Assembly: GCA_937922015.1 (NCBI GenBank)
Contig: CAKZVB010000054.1
Coordinates: 1 to 35,422 of the forward strand
DNA: 35,422 nucleotides
DNA from: an uncultured Granulosicoccaceae bacterium
GTDB lineage: Bacteria > Pseudomonadota > Gammaproteobacteria > Granulosicoccales > Granulosicoccaceae
Direction of reading: 5' to 3'
Below, in pieces: positions 7,694-35,422 of this stretch. Below the pieces are notes generated by a model. That model worked only from the letters and a program-made list of their open reading frames with translations, was not told the origin of the DNA and ran no database searches. Each line of letters starts with the position of its first letter. The stretch's first letter is position 1. The position numbers and the translations under genes are program-made.

Positions 7694-7839
7694 TGATGTC
7701 GACCCTTGTTCAACGCAAGCCTCGCTGTTACTAATGAGTATGGTTTAATTGTATTGGTGTAGTGGCGGCGTATAGTCACGTAGTGTTGAAAGTTCGGTTT
7801 ATTCAAAATAATATTTAATATTCCTTTGATCGCTGTTTT

Positions 7840-8511
7840 CTAGAACGGCCAGAATCGACTGGTTAGGACACGGGTAAGCCAGCCGCCACGATTGGTGTCT
7901 GCAATCATTCCTTTGCCGCTGTAGACAATATTTGCGTCGGCAATAAGATTCGACATAATGGTATTTTGCGGAGACAGATCTGTGGGCCGCACCAAACCGG
8001 AAATACTGATAATTTCCAACCCTGAATTTAGCGTGAGTTGTTTTTCGCCACTGATCACAAGGATTCCGTTTGGCCTGACATCGGTAACTGTGACTGTAAT
8101 GTTGCCTAGTAAGCTATTGCTTTGGCTGCTGTCACCGGTGCCATTGAAATCAGTGCCGGACTGCAGGCTGGTGGAAGCAGAATTGCCGTTTAAGGTTGGT
8201 ACTTTTCCCAGTAGAGTAGGGGCCGGTATATCAACTGCTGTGGTTCGACTGGCGGTGGTGCTGGCATTTTTCTCGGCAATGGTTCTTTCATCCAGAATGA
8301 CAGTAATTAAATCACCACGCCGCCGGGCCTTGCGGTCTTCAAACAGAAATCGACTGTTGTTATGCTGATAGATGGAGCCATTGGGTGCAGGAGCCGCTGG
8401 TTTCTCCTTGACCACTACCGGTAGCGGATCACGATTCACAATCGCGGGTGCACATGCGCTACAGGCAGCGATCAAAGTCATCACGCTGAGGAATCTAGGT
8501 AGAAGTTGCAT
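7840..8511 (-). CDS. flgH: Flagellar L-ring lipoprotein FlgH
   Basis: Outer-membrane lipoprotein that forms the L-ring bushing. In the 223 residues the signal region MQLLPRFLSVMTLIAAC gives a lipobox I-A-A-C with the acylated Cys at 17. Family motifs include GSIYQHNNSRFLFEDRKARR (about 45-64), GDLITVILDE (about 66-75), and late IVYSGKGMIADTNRGGWL followed by the terminal F-W-P-F. The length is close to E. coli FlgH (232). It lies 29 bases after flgG, consistent with one operon. The presence of an L-ring gene shows the host has an outer membrane. Confidence 0.95.
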   Translation of the reverse strand: MQLLPRFLSVMTLIAACSACAPAIVNRDPLPVVVKEKPAAPAPNGSIYQHNNSRFLFEDRKARRRGDLITVILDERTIAEKNASTTASRTTAVDIPAPTLLGKVPTLNGNSASTSLQSGTDFNGTGDSSQSNSLLGNITVTVTDVRPNGILVISGEKQLTLNSGLEIISISGLVRPTDLSPQNTIMSNLIADANIVYSGKGMIADTNRGGWLTRVLTSRFWPF

Positions 8512-8540
8512 ACGTCGGGCTCCTGTAGCGCTGATCCGGG

Positions 8541-9326
8541 TTAAAGATTGTTATTGGCAAACTGCAACATGCCGTCTGTTGTTGATATAGCCTTTGAATT
8601 TATCTCGTAGGCGCGCTGTGTTTCGATCATACTGACCAGTTCTTCAACGATATTGACGTTTGATGTTTCGATTGATCCTTGTATTAGCCGCCCGATGCCA
8701 TCAAGGCCGGCAGTGCCCTGCCGTGGTGTACCACTCGACGCCGTTTCGGTGTATAGATTTCCACCGATGGCATTCAGACCTGATGGATTGGCGAAGTCTG
8801 TAAGTGTAATAGTGCCTAGTTGTACCGGCGCGGTGGAGCCGGGCACGGTGGCTGAAACTGTACCGTCACGGCCGATACTAATAACACCTGTATCAGGCGG
8901 AACAGTAACGCCGGGCAGTAGCTGATAGCCGGTAGAAGTTACCAGGTTACCATCGACGCTCAATTGAAACGATCCATCACGTGTGTAGGCCGGTGTGCCG
9001 TCCGGCATTTGTACCTCAAAGAAACCACGACCTTCAATAGCCATGTCAAACTGGTTGTCGGTAATTGCAAGGCTTCCCTGATTATGCAATTTTTGCGTTG
9101 CCACCAGGCGTACACCTGTGCCGATGGAGGTTCCTGTTGGTGCGATATTGTTTTCAGCGGTATTCGCACCCGGCTGGCGAATCTGCTGGTACATAAGATC
9201 TTCGAACATTGCCCGGTCGCGTTTAAACCCGGTGGTATTTACATTCGCAAGATTGTTAGAAATAACCGCCATGCGACTTTGTTGGGCATCAAGACCTGTT
9301 TTTGCAGCCCAGAGAGCACTGTTCAT
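8541..9326 (-). CDS. flgG: Flagellar distal rod protein FlgG
   Basis: Main distal rod component. At 261 residues it matches E. coli FlgG (260). The N terminus reads [20 protein letters not shown] followed by [19 protein letters not shown], the axial-protein signature. The FlgG-specific stretch [19 protein letters not shown] follows at about 38-54. The C terminus, [19 protein letters not shown] and [13 protein letters not shown], is the paired D0 helix. It lies 60 bases after flgF. FlgE is longer and FlgF lacks the FEDLMYQQ element, so the paralogue assignment is secure. Confidence 0.96.
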
Positions 9327-9386
9327 AGTAGGGAATCCGTGTAGTTGGTTTTAATTTGAAAATCTAATCTGATGGTGTCTAAATTG

Positions 9387-10151
9387 TTAACTCATATTCA
9401 ACATTTTAGTCGCGGTGACTTCGTTTTCTTCTGAAGACTTCATGAGCTTTATCTGTATTTCGTACTGTCTTGCTAAAGTGATCATATTGGATAACGCCTC
9501 AATAGAACTGACGTTACTCGATTCCAGCGCACCGGCGGTTACAGTCACTGATGCGTCTGCTTCTGCGGGTGCCTGTGCAGCGTTGTCACCGTCGCCAAAA
9601 ACCGGTGTATCAACTTCTTTTAACAATCCATTTACACCCTTTACCAGATAATCATTATCGATTTTGACAAGCTTAATACGATCGATCTCAAGCATTGCAC
9701 CACCCGGTGCTTTGATCGATATGCTGCCATCTCCTGCTATTTGAATTGACTCGTGAGGTGGTATAGCAATGGGCCCGCCGTCACCCATCACGGTGTAGCC
9801 GCTGTTGGTTTGTAGTAGCCCGCCGGGACCGATGTTAAACTGGCCGCCGCGAGTGTACCCCTCGGAGCCATCGGTATCCTGGACTGCTATATACCCCTCA
9901 CGATCGATAGCAATATCCAGTGCCCGGCCGGTTGTGAAGATGTCTCCCTGCTTGTTGCTCACCGCTCCGCCTTTCCTGACAGCGTATACGCGGGTTTCTT
10001 GTTCCGTGGCCCCTGTTTCACTGGAAACAAAAGTATCCAGATCGGCACGAAAGCCGACCGTATTAAGGTTTGCCAGGTTGTGGTTGTTGGTCGCCTGACG
10101 CAACATAACCTGATTGGCTCCGTTCATGGCAACGTAGAGCATTCGATCCAT
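9387..10151 (-). CDS. flgF: Flagellar proximal rod protein FlgF
   Basis: Proximal rod component, 254 residues (E. coli FlgF is 251). It begins MDRMLYVAMNGANQVMLRQA, with NHNLANLNTVGFRADLDTF following. The residues MDRMLYVAM are typical of FlgF rather than FlgG. The central part has IDREGYIAVQDTDGSEGYTRGG-like sequence (about 84-103). The C-terminal axial helix is SNVSSIEALSNMITLARQYE. An acidic, alanine-rich insertion near residues 190-205 (DGDNAAQAPAEADASVTV) is a local oddity. It sits between flgE (54-base gap) and flgG (60-base gap). Confidence 0.95.
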   Translation of the reverse strand: MDRMLYVAMNGANQVMLRQATNNHNLANLNTVGFRADLDTFVSSETGATEQETRVYAVRKGGAVSNKQGDIFTTGRALDIAIDREGYIAVQDTDGSEGYTRGGQFNIGPGGLLQTNSGYTVMGDGGPIAIPPHESIQIAGDGSISIKAPGGAMLEIDRIKLVKIDNDYLVKGVNGLLKEVDTPVFGDGDNAAQAPAEADASVTVTAGALESSNVSSIEALSNMITLARQYEIQIKLMKSSEENEVTATKMLNMS

Positions 10152-10205
10152 AGGATATCGATCTCCTGTTATATATCGGTTATCTGGACTGGGGAATTAT
10201 TGTGA

Positions 10206-11426
10206 CTATCGACGGATATTCATCACGGTCTGCGTCATTTGATCACTGACGCTTATCACCTGAGCATTAGCCTGGTAGTTTCTTTGTGTGCCGATGATCT
10301 TCACCAGCTCCTCTGTGATATCAACGTTTGAGTCTTCCAGAGAGCCGGATTCAATGAGTCCCAGTGAGCCACTGCCGGGCTTGCCGCTTACCGCTTCACC
10401 TGAAGCAAATGTTTTTGTCCAGCTGGTTTCATCTGCAGGGGCAAGTCCCTGTGGATTGCGAAACTTGGTCAGTGCGATCTGTCCATGCACCGATAGTTGT
10501 TCATTGGTGTAGCGTCCGTAAATATAACCGTCATCGTCAATTTCAATTCCACTAAGTCTTCCCGCTGGAAAGCCATCCTGAGAAAGTTGATTAACACCTG
10601 TCTGGCCCTCGTACTGAGTGGTTTGGTCGAGCTTTATATCGATTTGCATCTCGGAAGTACCATTGGCCGGTGTAAATACGCTAGTGGATAGCTTTAGACT
10701 GGGGTCATTGTTAACACTGAGCAGGGTTCCCTCGGTGGTAAATTCCAGAACATCACCGTCTACCGGACTTACTTGCTGACCGTCTACAAACGTATGTACC
10801 GCCCAGACATTTGGCTGGAGCTTTTGGAAATACATTGTCGACAGGTGAGAGCTACCCAGTGAGTCAAATATTGCTGTGGAGCTTGCATGGTTGTAGGACT
10901 GCGGGTCGTCGACATCAAATACCGGAACGACTGGTAACTCCGCTGCGGAGTCGACGTTCATATTAAGTTCTATCGTCTTGGTTGCCAGTGGGGGAGAATC
11001 CGTTGCATCAATCTGCAGATCACCCAGTTCTGACTGCAGCAGTCCACCGGCGTTTGCCGGATAGCCCGTTAGTATATGCCCAGACCCATTGACCACAAAG
11101 CCGTCGTTGTTAATGCCAAAGCTGCCAGCTCTTGTGTAGGTGGTACCACCGTGAACGTTCATACGGAAGAAGCCGTCTCCTATGATCGAGAGATCCATCT
11201 GATTGTCGGTGGCAGTTACATTGCCCTGAGCAAACTGCTGGGCAACGTCGATGATTTTTACCCCCATTCCCAGCCTGTTCCCGGAACTGCCGGCGGAGTA
11301 TACATCGCCAAAATTTACAGACGAGCGTTTAAACCCTACTGTTGAAGCGTTTGCGATATTATTCGAGGTGGCAGCAAGATCAGCGCTTGCTGCTCTCAGT
11401 CCGGTCATTGCAATTTTTAATGTCAT
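10206..11426 (-). CDS. flgE: Flagellar hook protein FlgE
   Basis: Hook structural subunit, 406 residues (E. coli FlgE is 402). The N terminus LKIAMTGLRAASADLAATSN with NIANASTVGFKRSSVNFGDV is the hook variant of the axial motif. Residues about 75-100 (ATDNQMDLSIIGDGFFRM) are a family block, and the C terminus has EDSNVDITEELVKIIGTQRN followed by YQANAQVISVSDQMTQTVMN. The central D1/D2 region (about 145-290) is the variable part. It is 22 bases after flgD, which encodes the hook cap required for its polymerisation. Confidence 0.96.
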   Translation of the reverse strand: MTLKIAMTGLRAASADLAATSNNIANASTVGFKRSSVNFGDVYSAGSSGNRLGMGVKIIDVAQQFAQGNVTATDNQMDLSIIGDGFFRMNVHGGTTYTRAGSFGINNDGFVVNGSGHILTGYPANAGGLLQSELGDLQIDATDSPPLATKTIELNMNVDSAAELPVVPVFDVDDPQSYNHASSTAIFDSLGSSHLSTMYFQKLQPNVWAVHTFVDGQQVSPVDGDVLEFTTEGTLLSVNNDPSLKLSTSVFTPANGTSEMQIDIKLDQTTQYEGQTGVNQLSQDGFPAGRLSGIEIDDDGYIYGRYTNEQLSVHGQIALTKFRNPQGLAPADETSWTKTFASGEAVSGKPGSGSLGLIESGSLEDSNVDITEELVKIIGTQRNYQANAQVISVSDQMTQTVMNIRR

Positions 11427-11448
11427 TTCGTTTTCACCCTTTTAAAGT

Positions 11449-12138
11449 CTATAGAAACTTTCTAACGTCATTTATATTTACATCGTTCCCTTCACTGGTG
11501 GTGATTGTTAATTCTGTTCCACCAGCTCCCAAATTGACACTTCTGACAGTGGTTGCCACATGAATGGTCGCAGCCGTAGAATTGCCTTCGTCATCAACCG
11601 GGTATTCCACCCGAACATTGTAGGTTCCAGGGGCCGCCGTCTTGTTGTCGGACGTCTTGCCGTCCCACATCAGCGAATGCGATCCTGCGGCCTGGGATCC
11701 AAGGTCTATTCGATGCACCAGTTCACCTGCAGCGTCAGTAAATGAGGCTGTTGCCGTTTGTGTCGCACGAGGCAGAGAGTATTCGAGTGCAATGGGTTTA
11801 TCGGTTGCCAGTTCAGCCACGCTGCTTTCAATCATGGCGGATTTTCCTACAAGATTTGCGGCATTGAGCATTTTTGATGATGCCTGATCTGAAACAAAGT
11901 TATCCAGTGACACTCGCATGGCTTCGATACCCTGCACAGAACTGAATTGCGCCATTTGCGCAATGAACTCTGTATTACCCGTCGGTTTGAATGGATCCTG
12001 GTGCTGCATTTGAGTGAGCATTAACTTCATAAACTCATCCTGTCCAAGCCCGGAGTCGGTTTTTTTAGTAGCTGTGTCGACAGTCTGGATGCTGCTGGAG
12101 GCGATATCGCTAATAGCGTCCATAAGATTATTCTCCAA
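11449..12138 (-). CDS. flgD: Flagellar hook cap / assembly protein FlgD
   Basis: Scaffold that caps the growing hook and is discarded on completion. The 229-residue protein has the diagnostic N-terminal block GLGQDEFMKLMLTQMQHQDP followed by FKPTGNTEFIAQMAQFSSVQ (about 30-70). The C-terminal half holds a FlgD Ig-like/tudor region, with GTYNVRVEYPVDDEGN near 168-183. The start overlaps the last 11 bases of flgC, suggesting translational coupling. The alternative start at residue 6 (MDAISDIAS) is possible and would shorten it by five residues. The length is near the family norm (about 231). Confidence 0.94.
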   Translation of the reverse strand: MENNLMDAISDIASSSIQTVDTATKKTDSGLGQDEFMKLMLTQMQHQDPFKPTGNTEFIAQMAQFSSVQGIEAMRVSLDNFVSDQASSKMLNAANLVGKSAMIESSVAELATDKPIALEYSLPRATQTATASFTDAAGELVHRIDLGSQAAGSHSLMWDGKTSDNKTAAPGTYNVRVEYPVDDEGNSTAATIHVATTVRSVNLGAGGTELTITTSEGNDVNINDVRKFL

Positions 12139-22471: not shown

Positions 22472-23347
22472 TTAGGCTGTTGTTTCAAGATCCGCTTTCA
22501 GAAACTCGACAAAGGTTCGTATAAGGCGCAGCTCGCTTCTCTGCGCCACGTAGAATAACGTTTCTTCCATTTGCAACTGCGCGTCACTAATTGGAATACG
22601 CGCCAGTCTGTCGTCATAGCCAAACTCAGCGTCCGAGACAAAGCCGATACCGGATCCGGAACCGACGATATCTCGCATGGCTTCGCGGCCTTCTACCTCC
22701 ATTACCGGGGTAAGTACAATCTTCCTTCGAGCTGCCTCCTGTTCAAGTATCTGTCTGGTTTTCGAGCCCTGTTCGCGCAATACAATAGGGAATCGGGAAA
22801 GCTCGGCGAAGGTCAGGCTCGTGGTCTTTTTAGGTAGAAAGTCTTTAGCTGCAATGACGATTATCGGCGTGGAACCAAGATGCACCTGTTTGAGATCACT
22901 GCCTGGAGTAATACCACCGCCGATAGCGATTTCTGCATTATAGGCTCGCAGTTGCGTGATCATGTCCTGAGTGTTTGACGTGCGCATTGTTACAAAAACA
23001 TCCGGGTATTCAGCCTGGAAGCGTCGTAGCGGACCTGAAATGTGGCTGGCCGAGTCGACTATTATCCGCAGCACCCCTTCAACAGAGGATCGCTTTTCCG
23101 ACAGAAAATCATTGATCTGGTGTTCTGCTTCAAACAAGCGCTTGGTCAGGTGAAACAGTTGCGAGCCTTCTTCGGTCAGGTGAACGCGTTTTTTTTCTCG
23201 CCGAAACAGCAAAATATCATGATCCTGTTCCAGCCGCCGTACGTGCTCAGACAGCGCGGGTTGCGTTAAAAAGATCTTTTCCGACGCGCGGGAGAATCCG
23301 CCGTGTAGAGCAACACTGTGAAATGCTTTCAGCTGGCTGTAGCTCAC
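22472..23347 (-). CDS. LysR-type regulator, probable regulator of the phosphonate cluster
   Basis: LysR-family transcription factor, 291 residues. The N-terminal winged helix-turn-helix (about 1-60) includes FHSVALHGGFSRASEKIFLT and QPALSEHVRRLEQD. The C-terminal effector domain (about 88-290) has FPIVLREQGSKTRQILE and GSGIGFVSDAEFG. An ATG-started frame reaches 23440, but the added 31 residues are not family-like. I prefer the GTG at 23347, which has GGAGAAA about eight bases upstream and begins right at the DNA-binding domain. It is divergent from phnA with a 135-base intergenic gap containing a dyad, the usual LysR arrangement. Such regulators of AEP genes respond to the substrate in several bacteria; the ligand here is inferred. 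Confidence 0.88.
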   Translation of the reverse strand: MSYSQLKAFHSVALHGGFSRASEKIFLTQPALSEHVRRLEQDHDILLFRREKKRVHLTEEGSQLFHLTKRLFEAEHQINDFLSEKRSSVEGVLRIIVDSASHISGPLRRFQAEYPDVFVTMRTSNTQDMITQLRAYNAEIAIGGGITPGSDLKQVHLGSTPIIVIAAKDFLPKKTTSLTFAELSRFPIVLREQGSKTRQILEQEAARRKIVLTPVMEVEGREAMRDIVGSGSGIGFVSDAEFGYDDRLARIPISDAQLQMEETLFYVAQRSELRLIRTFVEFLKADLETTA

Positions 23348-23388
23348 TTGACTGTTTCTCCGTTTTTCGTCGCAGGTAGATTCATAGG

Positions 23389-23415
23389 TTGAGCTTATAG
23401 AATAATCTATATAAT
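23389..23415 (+). promoter_or_regulatory. phnA promoter region with overlapping dyad (candidate LysR operator)
   Basis: TATAGA (23396-23401) and TCTATA (23406-23411) form a perfect 6-4-6 inverted repeat. It overlaps a perfect -10 TATAAT (23410-23415) with a possible -35 TTGAGC (23389-23394, spacer 15, shorter than ideal). The site lies between the divergent LysR gene and phnA. The spacing is not the classic T-N11-A, so operator function is an inference from location and symmetry. Confidence 0.42.
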
Positions 23416-23482
23416 CAACTTTACATATACATTTATCCAAACGAAAATAGTCTGAAGCGACTACAAATTACGGAATCCAAAT

Positions 23483-24730
23483 ATGTCCATAGAATCACCG
23501 ATAGAAGCGAATAATCGCTCTTATCAGGCCCCGCGTGCGCCCTCGGTAGTCATCTGCCTTGACGGATGTGAGCCAGCTTATCTGGATGCCGCAATTGCCG
23601 CAGGCCTGATGCCGCATCTGAAACGAATTCGTGAGACCGGCACTGACCGCCTGGCACACAGTGTTATACCGTCATTTACTAACCCCAATAACCTGTCCAT
23701 TGCTACCGGCCAGCCTCCGCGGGTGCATGGCATTTGCGGAAATTATCTGTTGGACCCTGAAACCCATGAGGAAGTCATGATGAATGACGTGCGCTTCCTG
23801 TGGGTGCCGACCGTGTTCCGGCGGTTTCAGCAGGCCGGAGCCAAGGTTGCTATTGTCACAGCCAAAGACAAGCTGCGTGCCTTGCTTGGTGCAGAGCTGG
23901 AGTTTAAAGAAAACGGCGCATGCTGTTTTTCGGCAGAGAAATCTGACAGCTCAACTCAAAGTGAACACGGCATGGACCGGGCCTCGCAGTGGCTGGGTAT
24001 GAAACAACCGGAGGTGTACTCCGCCGATCTGTCCGAGTTTGTATTTGCGGCAGGTGTAAAGTTGCTGGAGGAGCGTCGCCCCGACCTCATGTATCTGACC
24101 ACAACCGACTATGTGCAACACAAGCACGCCCCCGGAGCCCCCGATGCCAACAGCTTCTATGAGATGTTTGATAAATACCTCGGTCAGCTCGATGACATGG
24201 GCGCGGTGATTGTCACCACTGCAGATCATGGTATGAAACCCAAACACAAGGCCGATGGTGCGCCTGATGTGATCTATGCACAGGAAGTGTTGGACGAAAT
24301 GTGCGGAGCGGGTAATTCCCGGGTGATACTGCCCATAACTGACCCTTACGTGGTGCATCACGGTGCACTGGGTGGCTTTGCTACCGCCTATCTGCCTGCA
24401 GAGGCAGATACCGCGGCAATCATTGACAAACTGCAGTCGATCAAAGGCATGTTACTGGTGATTGATAAAGCAGAGGCGGTGAAACGCTTTGATCTGCCGC
24501 CAGACAGAATTGGCGATATCGTGATGATTTCAGATGAAAATCAGGTGATCGGCACCAGTGAAGACAGGCACGATCTGGCCGCCCTCACAGAGCCGCTGCG
24601 TTCACATGGTGGTCTCACCGAACAAGAGGTGCCTTTTATTGTCAATCGCAGGATCGATATACCCGATGCTCCGCAACTTCGAAACTACGATGCAATTTTC
24701 TACTCCACCACAGCAGCTGCGAGTCAATAA
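23483..24730 (+). CDS. phnA: Phosphonoacetate hydrolase
   Basis: Zinc-dependent alkaline-phosphatase-superfamily enzyme that cleaves the C-P bond of phosphonoacetate to acetate and phosphate. The 415-residue protein shows every metal and nucleophile position I expect from the Sinorhizobium meliloti enzyme, shifted by two: Asp27 in CLDGCEP, nucleophile Thr66 in PSFTNPNN, Asp209 and His213 in TDYVQHKH, Asp248-His249 in [12 protein letters not shown], and His375 in LRSHGG. This makes an active enzyme likely. It is the first gene after the LysR/phnA promoter region, and phnY follows after only two bases. There is no signal peptide, so it is cytoplasmic. It should not be confused with the unrelated E. 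coli protein also once named PhnA. Confidence 0.95.
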
Positions 24731-24732
24731 AT

Positions 24733-26202
24733 ATGAACGGTTCGGTTTTGAATGATGGCAGGTTTAAAGTGCGCCATGAGGGTATGCGCATTGGTGGTGA
24801 GAAGGTTTTCACTGAAAAAGTCATCGACGTTGTTTATCCCTACACTGAAGAAACTATTGGCACGGTGCCAGCCGGTGATGCCACACACGCGGCACGTGCT
24901 TTCGAGATTGCCGCCAACTATAAGTCGACACTAACTCGCTACGAACGCCAGAAAATTCTGTTAAGAACGGCAGAGCTCATTGGTGAACGCCGTGACGAGC
25001 TCGCGTATTGGCTTACCCTTGAACTGGGCATCAGTCAGCAACACGCATTGTATGAAGCGGGCAGAGCATGCGACGTTTTTACTTTTGCAGGCCAGATGGC
25101 GATTGTCGATGACGGGCAGATTTTTTCCTGCGACCTGACACCGCATGGCAAGGCGCGCAAGATCTATACGAAACGCGAGCCGGTACGCACCATCTCTGCG
25201 ATTACTCCGTTTAATCACCCGCTGAACATGGTCAGCCATAAAATTGCACCGTCAATTGCCACTAATAATTGCCTGGTGTGTAAGCCCACAGAACTGACAC
25301 CACTAACCGCCATAGCGCTTGCAGATATTCTATATGAAGCCGGTTTACCACCGGAGATGTTTCAGGTAGTGACTGGCTTGCCACAGGATATTGGCGATGA
25401 AATGGTTACCAATGAAAATATAGATATCATTACGTTTACCGGTGGTGTGCCTGTAGGCAAGTTAATCGCCGCTAAAGCGGGCTACAGAAGAACCGCTCTG
25501 GAACTTGGCGGTAACGATCCGCTCATTGTACTCAATGACCTGAACGATGAAGACCTTGAAAAAGCAGCTACCATTGCCGTCGCTGGTGCGACTGGTAACT
25601 CCGGTCAACGTTGTACAGCGGTTAAACGCATTCTGGTGCAGGAGTCGGTGGCCGATAAATTTGTACCAATGGTACTTGCAAAGGCAAAGGCATTAAAATT
25701 CGGTGATCCGATGGACCCGGAGACGCAGCTGGGCTGTGTTATCAGCGCCAAAGCCGCTGAGCTCTTCGAGCAGCGTGTCTTTGATGCTGAAAAGCAGGGG
25801 GCAAAAATCTTGTACCACCCCGAGCGCAAAGGAGCATTGTTACCGCCTATTGTCGTTGATCATGTGCCACATGACACCGAGCTGGTGATGGAGGAAACCT
25901 TTGGTCCCATCGTGCCGATTGTGCGTGTCCCTGATGATGATGAGCAAGTGATGGCCATTTCAAACAGTACCCAGTTCGGGCTGTCATCCGGTGTCTGTAC
26001 CAATAACCTGCATCGCGCCATGGCTTTTATCGAAGGCCTCGATGTCGGCACTTGTAACATCTGGGAGCAACCGGGCTATCGCATCGAGATGTCCCCTTTT
26101 GGTGGTGTCAAAGACAGCGGTAATGCAGTTAAGGAGGGCGTGCTTGAAGCCATGAAATTCTTCACGGTGGTAAAAACCTATTCCCTGCCGTGGCCTTCGT
26201 AA
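24733..26202 (+). CDS. phnY: Phosphonoacetaldehyde dehydrogenase
   Basis: Aldehyde dehydrogenase oxidising phosphonoacetaldehyde to phosphonoacetate with NAD, the step between PhnW and PhnA. The 489 residues carry ALDH essentials: Asn161 in TPFNHP, Glu257 in ALELGGNDP and catalytic Cys294 in [10 protein letters not shown]. Arg111 and His162 sit where Arg108 and His159, the phosphonate-binding residues as I recall them, lie in the S. meliloti enzyme; Cys294 versus Cys291 shows the same shift of three. This supports PhnY over a generic succinate-semialdehyde-type enzyme. The ATG is two bases after the phnA stop, and the next gene begins 19 bases on, so one operon is expected. Confidence 0.93.
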
Positions 26203-26221
26203 GGTCGCAGGGGCTTAGTCA

Positions 26222-27595
26222 GTGACGCTCACACACACCGAGGGGGAATCGAATACATCTTCGGTGCGTGCGCAGTGGCTGCAAAAATCAAACAGTCCGA
26301 AATCGGCACCGCTGTTGTCACGGGATGCAGATGTGTTTCTGCATCAAAGCCTGTCAAGTCCCTGTGTGTCGAGTATTGCCAAAGCACAGGGTAGCTGGAT
26401 AGAAGATCATGACGGCAAGCGATACCTTGATTTTCACGGTAACTCCGTTCACCACATCGGCTATGGTCACCCGCGACTGGTCTCGGCAATAAAGGCCCAG
26501 CTGGACGACTTATCCTTTGCACCGCGTCGTTTTACCTGCGATCCGGCAGTTGAACTGGCAGAAAAGTTAACATCGATATCGCCGGGAGATTTAGACAAGG
26601 TACTCTTCACTACCGGAGGCTCGGATGCCAATGAGGTAGCCCTTAAAATAGCGCGTGCAGCCACCGGCAGATTTAAAACGGTTTCTTTTTGGGATGCCTT
26701 TCATGGCGCCGGGTTTGGTGCCGCCAGTGTCGGTGGAGAAGCCACTTTCCGTTCACATATCGCCGGACCACTGCTGCCCGGTGCCGAGCACGTAGCGCCA
26801 TTCAACTGTTATCGTTGCGCTTATAACCACGTCAGCCCGGACACCTGTGGACTGGCCTGTGCAAAGATGGTCGAGTATGTTCTTGACCGTGAAGGTGATG
26901 TAGCGGCCGTAATCGCCGAGCCTATGCGTGCGGTACCGGTGGTGCCGCCGGTCGGTTTTTGGCAGGCGGTGCGCAGTGCCTGCGATAAACATGGTGCGTT
27001 GTTGATTATGGATGAAATCCCCACCGGTCTTGGCAAGACCGGTCGCATGTTCGCCTTTGAGCACGATGAAATCGTGCCGGATATCGTCACTATCGGCAAG
27101 TCACTGGGCGGTGGCATTCTGCCAATAGCTGCTGTTGTCGCCCGGCGTGATCTCGATGTATGCGGTGACTTTGCTATTGGTCACTATACACACGAAAAAA
27201 ATCCCGTAACCAGCAGAGCTGCATTAACCACAATTCAGATAATAGAGGATGAAGAGCTGGTGACACGCGCAGCGCGTCTGGGTAAATACGCGATGGACAG
27301 GTTGCGCGAATCACTTAAACATTGTGCCATCGTCGGTGATATCCGCGGGCGTGGAGTGCTGTTCGGTATTGAAATAGTAAAAGATCGCGAACAAAAAACC
27401 GCGGCTAATGATCTGGCGGAAAATATTTACTATCGGTGCCTGGATGACGGTCTGAGTTTTAAAATTTCACAAGGCTGTGTATTGACGCTGTCACCACCGA
27501 TGACAATTTCAGAACAAGACCTCGACACGGCACTGAACATAGTTGAAGCCGCAGTACTCAACGCAGAGAAACTGTATAGCGGCAACGATTCATGA
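26222..27595 (+). CDS. pbfA: Class III PLP enzyme, probable (R)-1-hydroxy-2-aminoethylphosphonate ammonia-lyase (PbfA)
   Basis: A 457-residue class III aminotransferase-fold protein. PLP-binding residues are seen: Asp264 in IMDEIPTG and the Schiff-base Lys293 in TIGKSLGGG, plus TTGGSDANEVALK (130-142). Class III members in phnWAY clusters have been shown to be PbfA, which eliminates ammonia from (R)-1-hydroxy-AEP to give phosphonoacetaldehyde, the substrate of PhnY next door. A plain transaminase for AEP is less likely because phnW is also present. The start is GTG with AGGGG about 10 bases upstream, and the stop overlaps the next start as ATGA. The assignment rests on context and family; the residues that set substrate choice were not checked. 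Confidence 0.78.
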   Translation: MTLTHTEGESNTSSVRAQWLQKSNSPKSAPLLSRDADVFLHQSLSSPCVSSIAKAQGSWIEDHDGKRYLDFHGNSVHHIGYGHPRLVSAIKAQLDDLSFAPRRFTCDPAVELAEKLTSISPGDLDKVLFTTGGSDANEVALKIARAATGRFKTVSFWDAFHGAGFGAASVGGEATFRSHIAGPLLPGAEHVAPFNCYRCAYNHVSPDTCGLACAKMVEYVLDREGDVAAVIAEPMRAVPVVPPVGFWQAVRSACDKHGALLIMDEIPTGLGKTGRMFAFEHDEIVPDIVTIGKSLGGGILPIAAVVARRDLDVCGDFAIGHYTHEKNPVTSRAALTTIQIIEDEELVTRAARLGKYAMDRLRESLKHCAIVGDIRGRGVLFGIEIVKDREQKTAANDLAENIYYRCLDDGLSFKISQGCVLTLSPPMTISEQDLDTALNIVEAAVLNAEKLYSGNDS

Positions 27596-28602
27596 AGATA
27601 GTCAGAACAGACGCCGAACTGCAGACTCCCGGTATTGATCAGGCCTTGCTCGCCATGGGTCATGATCTGGTTTTGCTGCCTGATGGCGTTGACAGTAACA
27701 CTTTGATCGATGCTGTGGCTGAGGCCGATCTGTTATTGATGTGTTATACCCCTGTCACTCGGGGTGTGATTGAAAGCGCCAGAAAATTAAAAGGTATCGT
27801 CAAGTACGGCGTGGGCATTGATGCGATCGACATTGAGGCTGCAAAGGAACACGGAATCGTGGTGGTCAATGTCCCCGGGTATGCAGAAGAGACCGTCGCT
27901 GAAGGGGCATTCACTATGCTGATCGCTCTGGCAAAAAAACTGATCCCGCTCGATCAGCACATGAAAGCGCACGGATGGGCCTGGCCTGAACATCAATGGA
28001 TGGCCTCTGATATCGCAGGCAGGACGGTTGGGCTTATCGGTTTTGGCAAAATAGGCAAGAGCATGGCACGCATGGCAGGTTACGGTTTCCGTGCCAGAGT
28101 GATCGCCTATAGCCCGGACAACAGCGCTGATGAAATGGCGGCTCTGGGTGTAGAGAAGGTTGACGATCTGTCAGACCTGATGAGTGCCAGTGATTTTGTC
28201 TCGGTGCATTGCGTGCTCAATCCACAAACCCACCACCTGATCGGCGAGCGTGAGCTTCGCCAAATGAAGCCCGGCGCGTTTTTAATTAATGTATCGCGTG
28301 GTGCTATCGTCGATGAGGCGGCGTTGGTTGATGTGTTGAATCAGGGATTGATAGCCGGTGCCGGGTTAGATGTGTTTAGCAATGAACCACTGAATCTACA
28401 CGATCACCCGATGAAGAACCTGTACAGTCACCCCAACGTTATCCTGTCACCGCATCTGACTTTCTATACAAAGGAAGCGATGCAGCGGCTTGAAGCGGAA
28501 ACCCTCGAAAGATGTAATGAAGTACTGGAGGGAAAACCGGTCACGATTAAATCCACTGATGCCCGGCTGGCGGGGCAAAACCCATTGGCGCAGTACTTGT
28601 GA
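27592..28602 (+). CDS. D-2-hydroxyacid dehydrogenase family protein
   Basis: NAD(P)-dependent 2-hydroxyacid dehydrogenase, 336 residues. The Rossmann motif is GLIGFGKIGKS (147-157). The catalytic triad is Arg236 in NVSRGAIVDEAAL, Glu265 in FSNEPL and His288 in LSPHLTFYT. Substrate-binding YGVGIDAIDI (72-81) is typical. After strand 2 the sequence is AYSPDNS, lacking the Asp expected of strictly NAD-dependent members, so NADP use is possible. The start overlaps the stop of the PbfA-like gene (ATGA), so the two are translationally coupled. No step of the known AEP route needs it. It might act on a phosphono-2-ketoacid or another 2-keto acid, which is speculation. It is not close to phosphite dehydrogenase PtxD by my reading, although the length is the same. 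Confidence 0.85.
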   Translation: MKIVRTDAELQTPGIDQALLAMGHDLVLLPDGVDSNTLIDAVAEADLLLMCYTPVTRGVIESARKLKGIVKYGVGIDAIDIEAAKEHGIVVVNVPGYAEETVAEGAFTMLIALAKKLIPLDQHMKAHGWAWPEHQWMASDIAGRTVGLIGFGKIGKSMARMAGYGFRARVIAYSPDNSADEMAALGVEKVDDLSDLMSASDFVSVHCVLNPQTHHLIGERELRQMKPGAFLINVSRGAIVDEAALVDVLNQGLIAGAGLDVFSNEPLNLHDHPMKNLYSHPNVILSPHLTFYTKEAMQRLEAETLERCNEVLEGKPVTIKSTDARLAGQNPLAQYL

Positions 28603-28672
28603 CCGGCAACGTGTCCGGAAATGATTTATCTACGGTGGTACTACTGGCGATATTGCCTGTTGCGAACAGCCG

Positions 28673-30352
28673 GTGCAAGGCATGACACTGCTCACTTTTT
28701 TTGTGCAGTTGGCAGGTGCAACAATGTTGTTGCTTTTTGCGGTGCGGATGGTGCGCACGGGTATAGAGCGGGTGTTCGGTGCGTCGTTCCGACGCTATGT
28801 GACTAATACAGGCAATACAGTCACGGCCGCAACTACAGGGTTATTTCTTGCGATTGTGCTGCAAAGCTCTGCAGCGGTAGCGTTACTGGTGGCAGGGTTT
28901 GCGGGGGCAGGGTCGCTTGAGTTTGTGACCGGGGTTGCCATTATTCTGGGTGCTGATCTGGGATCGGCGTTGCTTATTCAGGTGCTGTCCTTTGATCTTG
29001 AGTGGCTGACACCGGCGCTGCTTGCCATCGGGGGAGGCCTCTATATTAAATCCGATCAACAGAAACTCCGGCAGACCGGAAGAATAATTCTTGGCATCGC
29101 CTTTATATTAGTGTCACTGCGATTTCTGCGCGAGACCATGATCCCGATTCGAGAGAGTGATTTTCTGCCCTCAGTGGCGGCTTATCTTTCAAATGACCAC
29201 CTGACTGCCTTTATCGCCGGTGCAATTCTGACGTTTATTATGCATTCATCAGTTGCTGCCATATTGATGTGCGTTACTTTTGTGTCCGTAGGTGCATTGC
29301 CATTAAGTGCGACGATTGCACTGGTTCTCGGTGCAAATCTGGGTTCAGCATTGATCCCGGTCTGGCTTAGCAGGGGCATGAAAAACGAGGCGCGTCGTCT
29401 GCCACTGGCCAATCTGCTGATACGCGGTGCAGCAGCTATTGTGGCGTTGTTTGTTGTTACCCGGCTGCCAATGCCGCAATGGGTGCTTTCCTGGGGGGAT
29501 GCTCAGGCCTTGATTATTGTGCATATATTATTTAACTGCACACTGATGTTAGCGTTGCCGGTATGTGGCTTGTTAAACAAGCCACTGTCATCAATGTTAC
29601 CGGAGGTGGTAAATATAGAACAGGATAACCCGGTGCTGCGAACGGCCCTGGATGCCAGTGTAACAGGCAAACCGCAACAGGCGATCGCCTGCCTGCGGCG
29701 TGAAGTGCTGAGAATGGCGCAGCTGGTCGAGAATATGGTTACACCGGTCATGCAGCTCTATGACGAATTCGATTTATCCCGCATGCGCGCCCTGCGAGAT
29801 CAGGACGCCAAAGTTAACCTGGCTCTTAACGATATAAAACGCTATGTAGCCTCCATACCCGATAACTCGATGTCAGATGAACAGCGCAACCAGACACGGG
29901 AGCTCACCGAATACGCTATCGCACTTGAGACAGCCGGGGATATTGTCGGTAAGCAACTACTCACTCTGGCGCAGGAGAAATCCGAAGACGGGGTGCGTCT
30001 GTCCAGAGAGGGCAGCGAAGAGCTTGCCGTCATGCACGACAGCCTGTTGTCGAATCTGACTTTGGCAATGAATCTATTGGTGTCAGATGATCTTGATAGC
30101 GCACGGTTATTATTAGAACAAAAGGCAGAGATGGTACGACTTGAACGCACGAGTCGTAAAAAGCATTTGAAGCGCCTGAGTGACGGATCGGCGGTTAGCT
30201 TTGACTCCAGCAACATACATCTCGAAACACTGCGATCACTGAATGAATTCAACAGCCGTGTAGCGACATTGGCCTATCCGATACTTTACCGGGGTGGACA
30301 GTTGCTGGAAACACGCTTGATTGAGAATCTTGATGACGCAAACACCAGCTAA
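28673..30352 (+). CDS. Na/Pi cotransporter family protein with PhoU-like tail
   Basis: A 559-residue inner-membrane protein of the NptA/YjbB type. Residues 1-310 hold about eight hydrophobic segments with two inverted Na_Pi_cotrans repeats, each bearing a Q/H-S-S motif: LQSSAAVALLVAGFAGAGSL (near 63-82) and MHSSVAAILMCVTFVSVGAL (near 189-208). Residues about 340-550 are a helical PhoU-like cytoplasmic domain. The start may be GTG at 28673 or ATG at 28682. E. coli YjbB of this family exports phosphate. In a cluster that frees Pi from phosphonates an exporter or Pi-balancing role is attractive, but direction cannot be read from sequence. It lies 70 bases after the dehydrogenase gene and 107 before phnW. 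Confidence 0.87.
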   Translation: MQGMTLLTFFVQLAGATMLLLFAVRMVRTGIERVFGASFRRYVTNTGNTVTAATTGLFLAIVLQSSAAVALLVAGFAGAGSLEFVTGVAIILGADLGSALLIQVLSFDLEWLTPALLAIGGGLYIKSDQQKLRQTGRIILGIAFILVSLRFLRETMIPIRESDFLPSVAAYLSNDHLTAFIAGAILTFIMHSSVAAILMCVTFVSVGALPLSATIALVLGANLGSALIPVWLSRGMKNEARRLPLANLLIRGAAAIVALFVVTRLPMPQWVLSWGDAQALIIVHILFNCTLMLALPVCGLLNKPLSSMLPEVVNIEQDNPVLRTALDASVTGKPQQAIACLRREVLRMAQLVENMVTPVMQLYDEFDLSRMRALRDQDAKVNLALNDIKRYVASIPDNSMSDEQRNQTRELTEYAIALETAGDIVGKQLLTLAQEKSEDGVRLSREGSEELAVMHDSLLSNLTLAMNLLVSDDLDSARLLLEQKAEMVRLERTSRKKHLKRLSDGSAVSFDSSNIHLETLRSLNEFNSRVATLAYPILYRGGQLLETRLIENLDDANTS

Positions 30353-30459
30353 CAAACAGCACCGATTAATCTGCAGCATCTTGAAAACTGTACGTATTTG
30401 GTGACGATTTGCAAAGTAGATGATGAATCAAAGTTAGAGTTGAACACGAGGCCGGGTTA

Positions 30460-31656
30460 ATGACCAACGAAAACGATACAAGTAGCCAGATACAGGCGCC
30501 GATTCCCGGTGAACCCTGGTTGCTCACTCCAGGTCCTCTGACTACCGCAGCAAGTGTTAAGCAGGCCATGCTAAGGGACTGGGGTTCCTGGGACGAAGAG
30601 TTCCGGTCCATGACTAAACAGTTGCGTCGCGAGTTGCTGGCGATGATGCAAGACACGCGCAATGAATATGAGTGCGTGCCGATTCAGGGCAGTGGCACCT
30701 TTGTTGTCGAGGCGATGCTTGGCACGCTGTTACCCCGCAACAGTAGAACACTGGTGTTGGTCAATGGAGCCTATGGGCAGCGTATGGCCGGCACACTCAA
30801 ACGAATTGGCAGGGACCATGTGGTGATAGATAAAGGAGATTATCTGCCGCCGCGTGGCGCTGATGTGCAAGCTGCCCTGAGTGCCGATGCGAATATCAGC
30901 CATGTAGTGGTGGTGCACTGTGAAACCAGCTCCGGAATTCTCAATCCCATAGAAGAAATTTCCGAAGTGGTCTACGCCGCAGGTCGCAAGCTGCTAATTG
31001 ACTCCATGAGTGGTTTCGGTGCGTTGCCACTGACAGCAGACAGTCTTCAGTTTGAAGCCATTGTCTCTTCCGCTAACAAGTGCATTGAAGGTGTTCCGGG
31101 TTTTGGTTTCGTTCTGGTGCGTCGCAGCGAATTGGAGCAGGCAGAGGGCTGCTGTCACTCTTTGAGTCTCGATATCTATGAGCAGTGGGTGCAAATGGAA
31201 AAAACCGGACAATGGCGCTATACCCCTCCGACTCACGTGGTGGCGGCATTTATTGAAGCGTTGAGGCTGCATCGCCAGGCCGGTGGAGTCAGCGCCCGGT
31301 TGCAGCGCTATACAAACAATCGAGATGTCCTGGTTGCCGGTATGCAGTCACTCGGTTTTGAAACATTACTTAGTGATCGCTGGTTATCACCGATTATCGT
31401 GACTTTCTTTAATCCGGCTGACAAGGAATTTGAGTTTGAGCGTTTTTATGCGCTCATGAAAGCGAAGGGTTTTATTATTTATCCGGGTAAGCTGACTGTG
31501 GTAGACAGTTTTCGAATTGGTTGTATCGGACAACTGGATGCCGGAGTGATGCAGAGTGTGGTGAAGGCTGCAGGGCTATGCTTAGCTGAAATGGGGGTGA
31601 CTAGTGCACAGCCACCCAGTGCAGCCCATGAAGAGCGTTTGAAAATTGCCGGCTGA
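30460..31656 (+). CDS. phnW: 2-aminoethylphosphonate:pyruvate aminotransferase
   Basis: PLP enzyme moving the amino group of 2-aminoethylphosphonate (AEP) to pyruvate, giving phosphonoacetaldehyde and L-alanine; first step of AEP use. The 398-residue length includes a short N-terminal extension and a polar C-terminal tail beyond the family norm (about 365). Hallmarks are [20 protein letters not shown] (21-40), [18 protein letters not shown] (76-85), [11 protein letters not shown] (153-163), Asp181 in [11 protein letters not shown] and the PLP Lys207 in [25 protein letters not shown] near the C terminus has the Arg expected to bind the phosphonate. Ribosome site GAGGCCGGG precedes ATG. The presence of PhnY and PhnA, with no PhnX in view, sends the product to phosphonoacetate. 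Confidence 0.95.
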
Positions 31657-31677
31657 TATAGATCTTTATACTACTGA

Positions 31678-33282
31678 ATGACCAACGTGACTCAAAATAA
31701 CTCTACGCAAAAAAAGAACATACTGTTGATCACGGCTGATCAATGGCGTGGTGATTGTCTGTCGGCGGCGTCGCACCCTTTAGTGGCAACGCCGAATCTG
31801 GATAAGCTAGCCAGACGTGGTGTGCGCTTTGAACGCCACTATGCCGGCGCCGCTCCGTGTTCACCGGCACGTGCCTGTCTCTATACGGGTTTGTATCAGA
31901 TGAATAACCGTGTCTGCATGAACGGATCACCGCTGGATGCCAGACATGACACACTGGCCCTGGCGTTTCGCAGGTACGGCTATGATCCGACGTTATTCGG
32001 TTATACCGATCAGGCAGCAGACCCCAGAGGCCTGCCACCACAAGACCCGCGACTGACCACCTACGAAGGATTGTTACCGGGTTTCAACTGGCGGGTTGGC
32101 TTGTCCGATGAGCAGCTGACCTGGTTATCCTGGTTGCAGAGGCAAGGCTATCAGAACGCGATGGACATCGCATCGCCCGGCATTCACATGCCCGATGGCA
32201 AACCCGATGATCCACCTGGCGGCAACGCCCCTCTGTATAGTGCAGAGCATACGGAAACGGCGTTTCTCGTTGATGAGTTTGAGCGCTGGCTGGCTGAACA
32301 AAAGACAGCGAAAAGAAAAGCGCAACACAATATGGCCGGTGGAGGACTCGCGCATGCCTGGTTTGCACACCTGAGTTTTTTGCGACCGCATCCGCCTTTT
32401 ACCGTGCCAGCGCCATACAACTCGATGTTCAATGCCGGCGACGTCGGTGCGTTTGCCGGTAGCAATGATGTAGAAAAAGAAGCAGCCGTGCATCCGTTAA
32501 TGGAATACCTTTTCTCCAAAGTAGCGAAGTCAGGATTCATACCGGGAGCCAGCGGTCTGGTGCGGGACTGGCAGCAATCAGACTTGAAAACCATAGCGGC
32601 TATCTACTACGGAATGGTGGCAGAGGTTGATGCGCAGATAGGTGTGGTGCTTAATGCGCTTGAGTCTTATGGCTATCTGGATGACACCATTGTTGTTTTT
32701 ACGTCTGACCACGGCGAGCAACTCGGTGATCATTGTCTGTTGGGAAAATATGGTTTTTATGATCAAAGTTTTCACGTGCCATTGATCATTGCCGACCCCT
32801 CACGATCAGCAGGCCATGGACAGAGTATTGCCAATTTCACCGAAGCAGTTGATGTAATGCCGACGATGATCGATCTGGCCGGTGGCATTGTACCCGACCA
32901 TCTGGACGGGCGTTCACTGCTTGGTGCTGTGGAGGCAGGAAAGCTGGAAAACTGGCGTCAATCGGCTCATTGGGAATATGACTTCCGGGATGTCTCTTCA
33001 AATGACGCAGAGCAGTATTTCGGATTACCCAGCCAGTTGTGCAATCTAAGTGTGTTGCGTGGTGAACGTTACAAATATGTGCACTGTGCGGGTTTGCCGC
33101 CGTTGTTGTTTGATCTGCAGGAAGCTCCGGATGAGAGTATAAATGTGGTGGATGACCCTGCTTACGCTGCGGTCAGAATCGCCTGTAGTGAAGAACTGCT
33201 GTGCTGGCGTGCCGAACATCTGGATCAGTCGCTGGCGCTGTCGAAACTCAGTCCTGTTGGTGAGAAGCGAAAACCGCCTTAG
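31678..33282 (+). CDS. Phosphonate monoester hydrolase / phosphodiesterase (formylglycine type)
   Basis: A 534-residue sulfatase-fold enzyme closely resembling the phosphonate monoester hydrolases of Rhizobium and Burkholderia. It has NILLITADQWRGDCL (14-28) with metal ligand Asp21 and the sulfatase motif C61-S-P-A-R65, whose Cys is normally converted to formylglycine. LRPHPPF, Asp344-His345 in TSDHGEQLGDH and Lys357 follow; the Asp-His to Lys spacing equals that I recall for the Rhizobium enzyme. HWEYDFRDV and ERYKYVHCAGLPPLLFDL are also family blocks. No signal peptide is seen, so it should act in the cytoplasm. It begins 21 bases after phnW. In this context it may split alkyl or glyceryl esters of AEP to free AEP for PhnW (inference). 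A formylglycine-generating enzyme gene is not in the window. Confidence 0.88.
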   Translation: MTNVTQNNSTQKKNILLITADQWRGDCLSAASHPLVATPNLDKLARRGVRFERHYAGAAPCSPARACLYTGLYQMNNRVCMNGSPLDARHDTLALAFRRYGYDPTLFGYTDQAADPRGLPPQDPRLTTYEGLLPGFNWRVGLSDEQLTWLSWLQRQGYQNAMDIASPGIHMPDGKPDDPPGGNAPLYSAEHTETAFLVDEFERWLAEQKTAKRKAQHNMAGGGLAHAWFAHLSFLRPHPPFTVPAPYNSMFNAGDVGAFAGSNDVEKEAAVHPLMEYLFSKVAKSGFIPGASGLVRDWQQSDLKTIAAIYYGMVAEVDAQIGVVLNALESYGYLDDTIVVFTSDHGEQLGDHCLLGKYGFYDQSFHVPLIIADPSRSAGHGQSIANFTEAVDVMPTMIDLAGGIVPDHLDGRSLLGAVEAGKLENWRQSAHWEYDFRDVSSNDAEQYFGLPSQLCNLSVLRGERYKYVHCAGLPPLLFDLQEAPDESINVVDDPAYAAVRIACSEELLCWRAEHLDQSLALSKLSPVGEKRKPP

Positions 33283-33344
33283 GCGCATTGCTGGTATCCA
33301 ATTTAAATTAAATATATAAGCGCACTATTAAAGAGAACAACTCG

Positions 33345-34397
33345 ATGCCACTACTGACCACTTGTATAGGTGCCTACCCCAAACCTGATTTTGTAAAACT
33401 GCCCGACTGGTTCAACATACCCGCCGGTCCGGATACCGCTGACCCGACCCTGCAATGGGCTGATGCCATGGCAGCGATGGGTGATGAAGCCGGTGATATT
33501 ATCGATCGAGGTATTCGCGAGGTGATCAGCGATCAGGTAGAAGCAGGTATCGATATTCCCACCGATGGTGAAGTGATCAGGGAAAACTACATCCACTATC
33601 ATTGCCGGCATCTGGATGGATTCGATTTTAACAATCTCACCAATAAAGAACTAAGAGGCGGTAACTATTCAGCTAACCTGCCCACTATTGTGTCAAAAAT
33701 TTCCTTGCGTCAACCGTTCCTGGCAGCCGAGTGGAAGAAGGCCCAGGCCCACACCGATCGCGAAGTGAAAATGACAATACCCGGCCCGATGACCGTTAGC
33801 GATACCAACGTCGACGCGTTTTATCATGATGCCAGAAAACTCGGTGCCGACATTGCAGACGCGCTTAATAAGGATGTGCTTGCATTAGCCGCCGCCGGGT
33901 GCAGACACATTCAAATAGATGAGCCCCTTTTTGCACGCAAACCGGAAGCCGCACTCGACTATGGATTTGAAAATTTGGAACGAGCGTTTCACGGTTGTCC
34001 TGATCATGTCATTCGAACCGTGCATATGTGCTGCGGTTATCCGGATCGACTCGATCATCCAGACTATCCAAAGGCCGATCCGGGTGCCTATCTGCAGATT
34101 GCTGATGCAGTAGAACAATCAACTATAAATCGTGTATCAGTCGAAGATGCACACCGCCACAACGATCTCTCTTTGCTCGAACACTTTAAAACCACGTCGG
34201 TAATTTTTGGCACGGTTGCGATTGCCAGAAGCCCGATAGAATCGGTCGAGGAAATTCGCCAAAGACTGACACAGGCATTGCAGCATATTGATAGTGATCG
34301 GCTGTTGGCCGCACCGGATTGTGGTCTGGGTCTTTTGTCCAGAGAGCAGGCGAGGGCCAAGCTTACTAACATGGTGTTAGCCGCAAAATCAATCTGA
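33345..34397 (+). CDS. Core MetE-like (cobalamin-independent methionine synthase C-terminal family) zinc protein
   Basis: A 350-residue protein equal to the catalytic C-terminal half of MetE, without the N-terminal half. All four zinc ligands seem kept: His and Cys in VHMCCGYP (about 227-234), Glu in RVSVEDAH (about 264-271) and Cys in AAPDCGLGLL (about 325-334). PTDGEVIRENYIHYH (about 67-81) and KMTIPGPMTVSDTNV (about 143-157) are further family blocks. Relatives include core methionine synthases and epoxyalkane:CoM transferase, all activating a thiol on zinc. The acceptor and donor here are unknown. It follows the phosphonate monoester hydrolase by 62 bases in the same direction, so it may be a peripheral part of the cluster. 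Ribosome site AAAGAGAA precedes ATG. Confidence 0.85.
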   Translation: MPLLTTCIGAYPKPDFVKLPDWFNIPAGPDTADPTLQWADAMAAMGDEAGDIIDRGIREVISDQVEAGIDIPTDGEVIRENYIHYHCRHLDGFDFNNLTNKELRGGNYSANLPTIVSKISLRQPFLAAEWKKAQAHTDREVKMTIPGPMTVSDTNVDAFYHDARKLGADIADALNKDVLALAAAGCRHIQIDEPLFARKPEAALDYGFENLERAFHGCPDHVIRTVHMCCGYPDRLDHPDYPKADPGAYLQIADAVEQSTINRVSVEDAHRHNDLSLLEHFKTTSVIFGTVAIARSPIESVEEIRQRLTQALQHIDSDRLLAAPDCGLGLLSREQARAKLTNMVLAAKSI

Positions 34398-34739: not shown

Positions 34740-35422
34740 ATGAAAGTACTTACCGCTGAAATCCAGCACGAGACCAACACCTTTAGTTGCCATAAAACTG
34801 ACTTACAGGCATTTTATAATCGTTTCTTGTTGTTTGGAGACGATGCAATTGCAGAGCGTGGCAAAGCGAATACAGAGCTTGCTGGATTTCTGGATGCCGG
34901 TCAAAGTCATAATTGGAAAATTAATCATGTGCTCAGTGCAGCGGCAGGCCCCAGCGGTAAAGTAAGCCGTGAGGCGTTTGAGTATCTATGTGACCCGGTG
35001 GTACAAGCGCTTAGTCAAGGTCAATACAATGGAATTCTGCTCGCCTTGCATGGCGCTATGGTGACTGATTTCTGTGAGGACGGTGAGGGTGAATTATTAC
35101 AGCGCCTGCGCCAGGTAGCGGGGCCCGATTTACCCATTGCGGTGACTCTTGATCTACACGCAAATGTTAGTGCACAGATGTGCTCACTCGCCGACATTAT
35201 AGTTTCCTACAAGACCTACCCCCATGTTGATATGCTTGAAACAGGTCGCCATGCAGGCGATATTCTGCATCGTGCGATGAGCGGAGAAATCAAACCATAT
35301 ACCATCCGGGTTAACCGACCGATGCTGGAAGAGGTTAATGGAGGACGCACTGATATCGGACCAATGACAGATCGCATCTCATCAGCACGCGACTATGAAC
35401 GGCAGGAAGACGTGTTTGCTGT
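34740..35422 (+). CDS. M81 family metallopeptidase (MlrC-like), 5' part, cut by window end
   Basis: The frame opens with ATG at 34740 and is still open at the last base (227 codons visible of an expected 480-500). Family motifs are clear: MKVLTAEIQHETNTFSCHKT at the N terminus, LLALHGAMVTDFCEDGEGEL (about 101-120), TLDLHANVSAQMCSLADI (about 137-154), SYKTYPHVDMLETGRHA (about 156-172) and LEEVNGGRTDIGPM (about 195-208). These include the His/Asp/Glu residues of the M81 metal centre. The best-known member, MlrC, degrades the linear microcystin peptide, but most relatives are uncharacterised hydrolases often next to peptide transporters. It follows the MetE-like gene in the same direction after 342 bases. 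The ribosome site is weak. Confidence 0.88.
   Translation, partial: MKVLTAEIQHETNTFSCHKTDLQAFYNRFLLFGDDAIAERGKANTELAGFLDAGQSHNWKINHVLSAAAGPSGKVSREAFEYLCDPVVQALSQGQYNGILLALHGAMVTDFCEDGEGELLQRLRQVAGPDLPIAVTLDLHANVSAQMCSLADIIVSYKTYPHVDMLETGRHAGDILHRAMSGEIKPYTIRVNRPMLEEVNGGRTDIGPMTDRISSARDYERQEDVFA

Follow-up and report, generated by a model that had tools for sequence, protein, structure and literature searches.

Some natural phosphonate occurs in lipids and polysaccharides in ester form, and the hydrolytic pathways described so far begin at free 2-aminoethylphosphonate (AEP) or small derivatives of it. Sosa et al. (2017, PMC5649143) have put forward a phosphonate monoester hydrolase (PMH), along with other alkaline phosphatases, as possible enzymes for the release of phosphonates from polysaccharide esters in the sea. 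The closest described AEP clusters combine phnW, phnY and phnA with pbfA and pbfF, the last encoding a nicotinamide adenine dinucleotide (NAD)-dependent racemase of 2-amino-1-hydroxyethylphosphonate (hydroxy-AEP, HAEP) that belongs to pfam02826 (Ruffolo et al. 2025, PMC12366243). In the AEP clusters of that paper PbfF is always encoded with pbfA, and it is reported, apparently, in some Alphaproteobacteria only. Substrate induction through LysR-type regulators, independent of inorganic phosphate (Pi), was proposed by Murphy et al. (2021, PMC8316502) and likewise in a 2023 review (PMC10574752), and a part in regenerating phosphate in the sea has been proposed for AEP mineralisation at high Pi (PMC8316502). 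In this report we describe an eight-gene cluster in a 35,422-nucleotide stretch of DNA (the window) from an uncultured Granulosicoccaceae bacterium (contig CAKZVB010000054.1, or C54, of the assembly GCA_937922015.1, which measures 5.0 Mb and is 80.6% complete). We consider it likely that this is a LysR-controlled catabolic cluster for AEP and its derivatives.

An earlier note on this DNA had placed eight same-strand genes at 23483-34397, behind a divergent lysR gene, and the positions of all these open reading frames were confirmed (Table 1). The genes run in the order phnA, phnY, pbfA, a pbfF-like gene first called a 2-hydroxyacid dehydrogenase, a Na/Pi transporter gene (nptA), phnW, the PMH gene and a last one, left unnamed in that note, that is MetE-like; the seven intergenic gaps measure 2, 19, -4, 70, 107, 21 and 62 bp. 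PhnW, PhnY and PhnA, as already named there, each score above a curated NCBIfam cut-off within this one cluster, and PbfA passes the cut-off of NF049939. PhnW would convert AEP, and PbfA the R form of hydroxy-AEP, to phosphonoacetaldehyde, which PhnY would oxidise before PhnA frees acetate and phosphate. This route from AEP through phosphonoacetaldehyde and phosphonoacetate to acetate and Pi, the hydroxy-AEP entry and a probable entry of esters, all proposed earlier, are backed by family models, by the residues of the active sites and by conservation of the gene neighbourhoods. A gene-neighbourhood search, which the note had called for, found lysR-phnA-phnY-pbfA-pbfF-nptA-phnW-pmh intact in two genomes of the same genus (G014 and G006), with proteins 60-94% identical to those of the window; in a third, G007, nptA does not lie between pbfF and phnW, and the contig stops just past phnW. 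Gene identities from curated models, gene order, active-site residues and recurrence are thus what was observed, and from them we infer each reaction in this organism.

Table 1. Features of the AEP cluster and its regulatory region (window coordinates; scores in bits).
Feature	Position	Strand	Evidence
LysR-type regulator (AepR/PhnR-like)	22472..23440	-	best NCBIfam model TIGR03339 phn_lysR, 274 bits, below cut-off 341
Perfect dyad TATAGA-N4-TCTATA, candidate LysR binding site	23396..23411	.	lysR-phnA intergenic; single match in window, 0 in 100 shuffles
phnA, phosphonoacetate hydrolase	23483..24730	+	TIGR02335 521 bits, cut-off 408
phnY, phosphonoacetaldehyde dehydrogenase	24733..26202	+	TIGR03250 751 bits, cut-off 636
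pbfA, (R)-1-hydroxy-AEP ammonia-lyase	26222..27595	+	NF049939 685 bits, cut-off 525
pbfF-like, probable HAEP racemase (pfam02826)	27592..28602	+	2-Hacid_dh_C; 4-bp overlap with pbfA; tree position
nptA/yjbB-type Na/Pi transporter, C-terminal PhoU domain	28673..30352	+	NF037997 128 bits, cut-off 50; TIGR00704 151 bits, below cut-off 210; PF02690 (Na_Pi_cotrans) and PF01895 (PhoU)
phnW, AEP:pyruvate aminotransferase	30460..31656	+	TIGR02326 467 bits, cut-off 401; two more PhnW models over cut-off
PMH, alkaline-phosphatase superfamily	31678..33282	+	PDB 4uph 617 bits; 9/10 active-site residues as in R. leguminosarum enzyme
MetE-like protein (cobalamin-independent methionine synthase C-terminal domain)	33345..34397	+	PF01717

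Recurrence was followed through phnA. Genes matching TIGR02335 were found in 5 of 369 genomes sampled from the class, 20 of 398 from the phylum and 85 of 397 from a further order, the one to which G493 belongs. The DNA flanking 108 such places was fetched to a distance of up to about 10 kb on either side; with the window and locus L024 these places make 110 loci, many of them cut by contig ends; phnY is present in 82. The bit-score thresholds of this census were chosen by the author and its counts ignore relatedness. Among the 82 loci with both genes, phnW was found in 64, lysR in 59, pbfA in 23 and pbfF in nine, each of these nine with pbfA.

The fourth gene, a 2-hydroxyacid dehydrogenase in the earlier note, most likely encodes PbfF, the HAEP racemase, judging from its sequence and surroundings, and S-HAEP would thereby be added to the substrates: PbfF would turn S-hydroxy-AEP into the R form, the substrate of PbfA. 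It is a pfam02826 protein encoded with pbfA inside an AEP cluster. The best matches in a plasmid search (913 records) were a 58.5% identical protein of Sinorhizobium sp. RAC02 and one of Shinella zoogloeoides at 57.3%, the latter a species of Table 1 in PMC12366243, while the other 38 matches listed are 34.7-40.8% identical. In a 90-row tree the protein groups with its own genus (four rows, 100/99), and these rows are nested in a 31-row group (support 87/87) in which 27 rows are pbfA-linked and five organisms of that Table 1 are included. Across the family, 10 of 48 genomes, the present one among them, encode a PbfF-like protein of at least 53% identity; in nine of these ten the gene lies beside pbfA, and the contig of the tenth is 3.8 kb long. 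A probable PbfF, encoded with pbfA, is thus present in Gammaproteobacteria too.

Several observations weigh against calling the protein PbfF. The model library used has no dedicated PbfF model, and the solved relatives listed are all dehydrogenases or CtBP-type proteins. Of the 90 tree rows, 44 lack pbfA in the fetched stretch (some stretches being short); the pbfA-linked rows do not form one clade, and the label takes 11 changes on the tree. Some relatives without pbfA reach 60-68% identity to the window protein. The assayed enzyme, from Mesorhizobium plurifarium, is not among the 90 rows, and with midpoint rooting the PbfF-like protein of a congener (L102) is placed in the opposite half of the tree. 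These points would suit an ordinary dehydrogenase of 2-hydroxyacids, or of S-HAEP, rather than a racemase, a reading that we hold to be quite improbable given that the gene overlaps pbfA by 4 bp, that pbfA stands beside it in all four genus genomes where it was found, that the protein groups with the five organisms of the PbfF paper, and that pbfA accompanies it in nine of nine pbfF-bearing loci of the phnA sample. Identity by itself was dropped as proof that the protein is PbfF, because relatives without pbfA nearby reach those 60-68% while the Shinella protein, from a Table 1 species, has 57%. The relatives in question come from Arenibacter (L068, 10001-11005), Defluviimonas, Amylibacter, Desulfobacteraceae and Pedosphaera, and PbfF relatives without pbfA in the DNA fetched occur also in Bacteroidota and other phyla. 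The Arenibacter gene adjoins those for a glycine C-acetyltransferase and an epimerase-like protein; the scanned neighbours in Arenibacter, Defluviimonas (L038) and Amylibacter (L059) hold no phosphonate family. A trimethylamine methyltransferase-like gene (L059, 5990-7528, + strand; TIGR02369, below cut-off) lies a few genes from the relative in the Amylibacter assembly.

The PMH is probably, as far as its sequence and context indicate, a cytosolic entry enzyme for esters of AEP or hydroxy-AEP; it would free these from small imported esters, for which head groups of deacylated phosphonolipids or glycan fragments that bear AEP are candidates. Its best solved relative is 4uph (617 bits), followed by 2vqr (408) and 2w8s (388). 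The formylglycine motif and metal ligands of the group are present, and nine of ten active-site residues are identical to those that we take to make up the active site of R. leguminosarum PehA; Thr107 is replaced by Asp, the residue found there in 30 of 33 aligned rows. The genome also encodes four PF03781 proteins, two of them with a C-x4-C motif, presumably that of formylglycine-generating enzymes. A set of 80 genomes with phnA, made up of 77 sampled ones (among them G000) and the added relatives G006, G014 and G029, contains 30 places that encode a PMH of at least 290 bits. Eight of them lie within about 11 kb of phnA, about 0.16 being expected, in at least five lineages (G000, G006, G014, G020, G029, G340, G1037 and G1124).

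Less favourable to this role, the protein scores 509 bits against an equivalog cut-off of 900 for PehA (NF045661), and it is therefore not filed as PehA itself; a PMH is also rare beside phnA in the unselected sample, occurring within 12.5 kb in 5 of the 110 loci. The idea that PMHs beside phn genes form one clade was rejected, since their tree takes 7 changes against 9.3 by shuffling. The enzyme might instead be a general scavenger of phosphodiesters or sulfate esters that stands in the cluster by chance and does not feed AEP to PhnW. Enzymes of the family act on phosphodiesters too (Sosa et al. 2017, PMC5649143), 22 of the 30 strong PMH places are not near phnA, and named plasmid homologues have neighbours as varied as sugar importers, galE, a molybdate importer and Mla genes. 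We nevertheless find a chance scavenger unlikely, in view of the eight genomes and five or more lineages with a PMH near phnA, of the same arrangement in three more named loci (L037, L039 and L107), and of PMH genes that stand in runs with phnW-phnX, with phnX, and between two importers, one of them an AEP importer.

Transport of such substrates is best seen in relatives. The AEP importer genes phnS2-T2-U2 lie just upstream of lysR in G014 and G006. A search of the window's own, 80.6%-complete genome revealed no AEP importer that passes its cut-off, which counts against the proposed catabolic role; the best candidate is a phnS2 relative on another contig (227 bits, cut-off 393). A five-gene Opp-type importer is tied to a PMH clade distinct from that of the window and closest to 4upk: the Opp-linked PMHs (12 of 32 rows) can be placed on the tree with 3 changes, where shuffled labels need 10.0. 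Several of the eight genomes with a PMH near phnA pair a PMH with an importer of this type. Locus L024 reads phnW-phnA-phnY-pbfA-pbfF-oppABCDF-pmh-phnS2-T2-U2, and Opp genes and a PMH are found beside phn genes in L023, L202, L192, L039 and L107 as well; in L293, L294 and L297 the two are neighbours at a distance from phn genes. In Rhodobacteraceae bacterium SC52, which came from sea cucumber gut, a plasmid carries oppABCDF, phnW and phnX in a single run with the gene of a hydrolase that shares 46-48% identity with PMHs of the Opp-linked clade. A Pararhizobium plasmid has another run, made up of genes for a flavin adenine dinucleotide (FAD) oxidoreductase, PhnX, an ABC importer and a PMH. The binding protein of the Opp importer is similar to proteins that bind oligopeptides and oligosaccharides. 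With a minimum identity of 65%, a line drawn after the table had been seen and with relatedness ignored, oppA is present in 14 of 397 genomes, and 11 of the 14 are phnA-positive (one below the phnA cut-off; 3.0 expected, p 5e-6); counted at any identity in the 397 genomes the tie is weak, with 14 of 39 phnA-positive (8.4 expected, p 0.02). The present genome carries an Opp importer elsewhere, in two contig pieces.

In G821 (L302, 163-5055, - strand) an Opp importer is followed by a hydrolase of the alkaline-phosphatase superfamily, 32% identical to the window PMH, and by a 1069-residue protein with iron-sulfur and DmmA-like domains that hints at an oxidative demethylation step. Beyond pmh in G014 (L020, 15086-16880, - strand) lie genes for TmpB (NF049941, 341 bits, cut-off 300) and a TauD-type, TmpA-like oxygenase, of the trimethyl-AEP route, so the island of that genome covers still more phosphonates.

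The MetE-like gene seems to travel with the phosphonate system. Its orthologues in G014 and G006 (75-78% identical) stand next to oppF and its relative in G807 (53%) next to oppA, while in G029 it lies next to the lysR gene of the AEP cluster and in G1106 next to phnW. Of 25 places in the 80 genomes, three are by phnA (G000, G029 and G1106) and three next to an Opp importer (G014, G006 and G807). That it is a chance neighbour was dropped because these six places, the window's included, are by phn genes or an Opp importer. The residues that we presume to bind zinc do not vary among six aligned relatives. A wider reading, to which we would give a little less than even weight, is that of a recurrent phosphonate-ester module, to our knowledge undescribed, feeding AEP catabolism in Alpha- and Gammaproteobacteria: a dedicated Opp importer would bring in esters or glycan pieces that carry AEP, a cytosolic PMH would cut them, the MetE-like protein would act on another portion, which may be methylated, the products would pass to PhnW, PbfA and PbfF, and an NptA/YjbB-type transporter would export the Pi that users of AEP release.

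That the cluster encodes a Pi transporter was already part of the earlier note, and the models bear out its presence, with membership in the Na/Pi symporter family (NF037997); the possible outward direction had been overlooked. Of the 82 loci with phnA and phnY, the window included, 39 have a gene of this type no more than 10 kb from phnA (36 on the strand of phnA), as against 2 of the 28 without phnY. The likely role of the transporter is to rid the cell of excess phosphate while phosphonates are used as nitrogen or carbon source. Import is the direction taken by S. aureus NptA, which also has a PhoU domain (PMC13170248). We hold import to be somewhat unlikely here, where the cluster itself generates phosphate under a LysR gene; by analogy only, Pi export accompanies growth of Stappia on AEP (Murphy et al. 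2021, PMC8316502), and work on Salmonella makes use of the Na/Pi transporter YjbB to export Pi (PMC10055408). The linked gene is a candidate for the phosphate export seen during AEP mineralisation at high Pi.

The layout and the divergent regulator suggest a cluster that is co-transcribed, LysR-controlled and induced by its substrate. A point to the contrary is that the LysR protein fails the phn_lysR cut-off (TIGR03339, 274 against 341 bits), although this is its best model. Its gene probably starts at the GTG at 23347 rather than at the TTG at 23440, since relatives are shorter. The block that holds the dyad is conserved in four genomes, the dyad being imperfect in the other three. Promoter and terminator scans gave no excess over shuffles (8 against 14.0 and 14 against 12.4 shuffled). 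Upstream of the cluster a run of flagellar genes (flgL, K, J, I, H, G, F, E and D) occupies 2826-12138 on the - strand, and 342 bp past the MetE-like gene an M81 family metallopeptidase gene (microcystinase-like; 34740-35420, + strand) is cut by the end of the window.

The full combination of genes had been thought undescribed. Its core, phnWYA with pbfA and pbfF, is already known, because the dehydrogenase is most likely PbfF, published in 2025 (PMC12366243); the PMH and the Na/Pi transporter are additions for which we found no description. No paper was found that places a PMH or NptA/YjbB gene in AEP clusters (figures, supplements and most subscription papers lay outside the search), and terms for both are absent from the searched main texts of two papers from the PbfF group. 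The clusters of PMC12366243, as given in its Table 1, share with the window the same enzymes, the adjacency of pbfA and pbfF and, typically, a LysR-type regulator. In contrast to them, the window is gammaproteobacterial, has the order phnA-phnY-pbfA-pbfF-nptA-phnW-pmh and carries the extra PMH, Na/Pi transporter and MetE-like genes, and family-model scans named no pbfC or pbfD in its cluster. The aepXVW-phnWAY operons with AepR (PMC8316502) likewise have a LysR gene, PhnW, PhnA and PhnY, and the proposed substrate induction and Pi export are common to those operons and our reading of the window, whereas the window cluster is without an importer of the phnS2/T2/U2 type, such as the relatives G014 and G006 have. 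With the solved PMHs 4uph, 2vqr, 2w8s and 4upk the window enzyme shares the formylglycine motif, the metal ligands and nine of ten active-site residues of the R. leguminosarum enzyme; it differs from them in the Asp at the Thr107 position and in its place within an AEP catabolic cluster, where a linked PMH would supply the first step that is missing from the described pathways.

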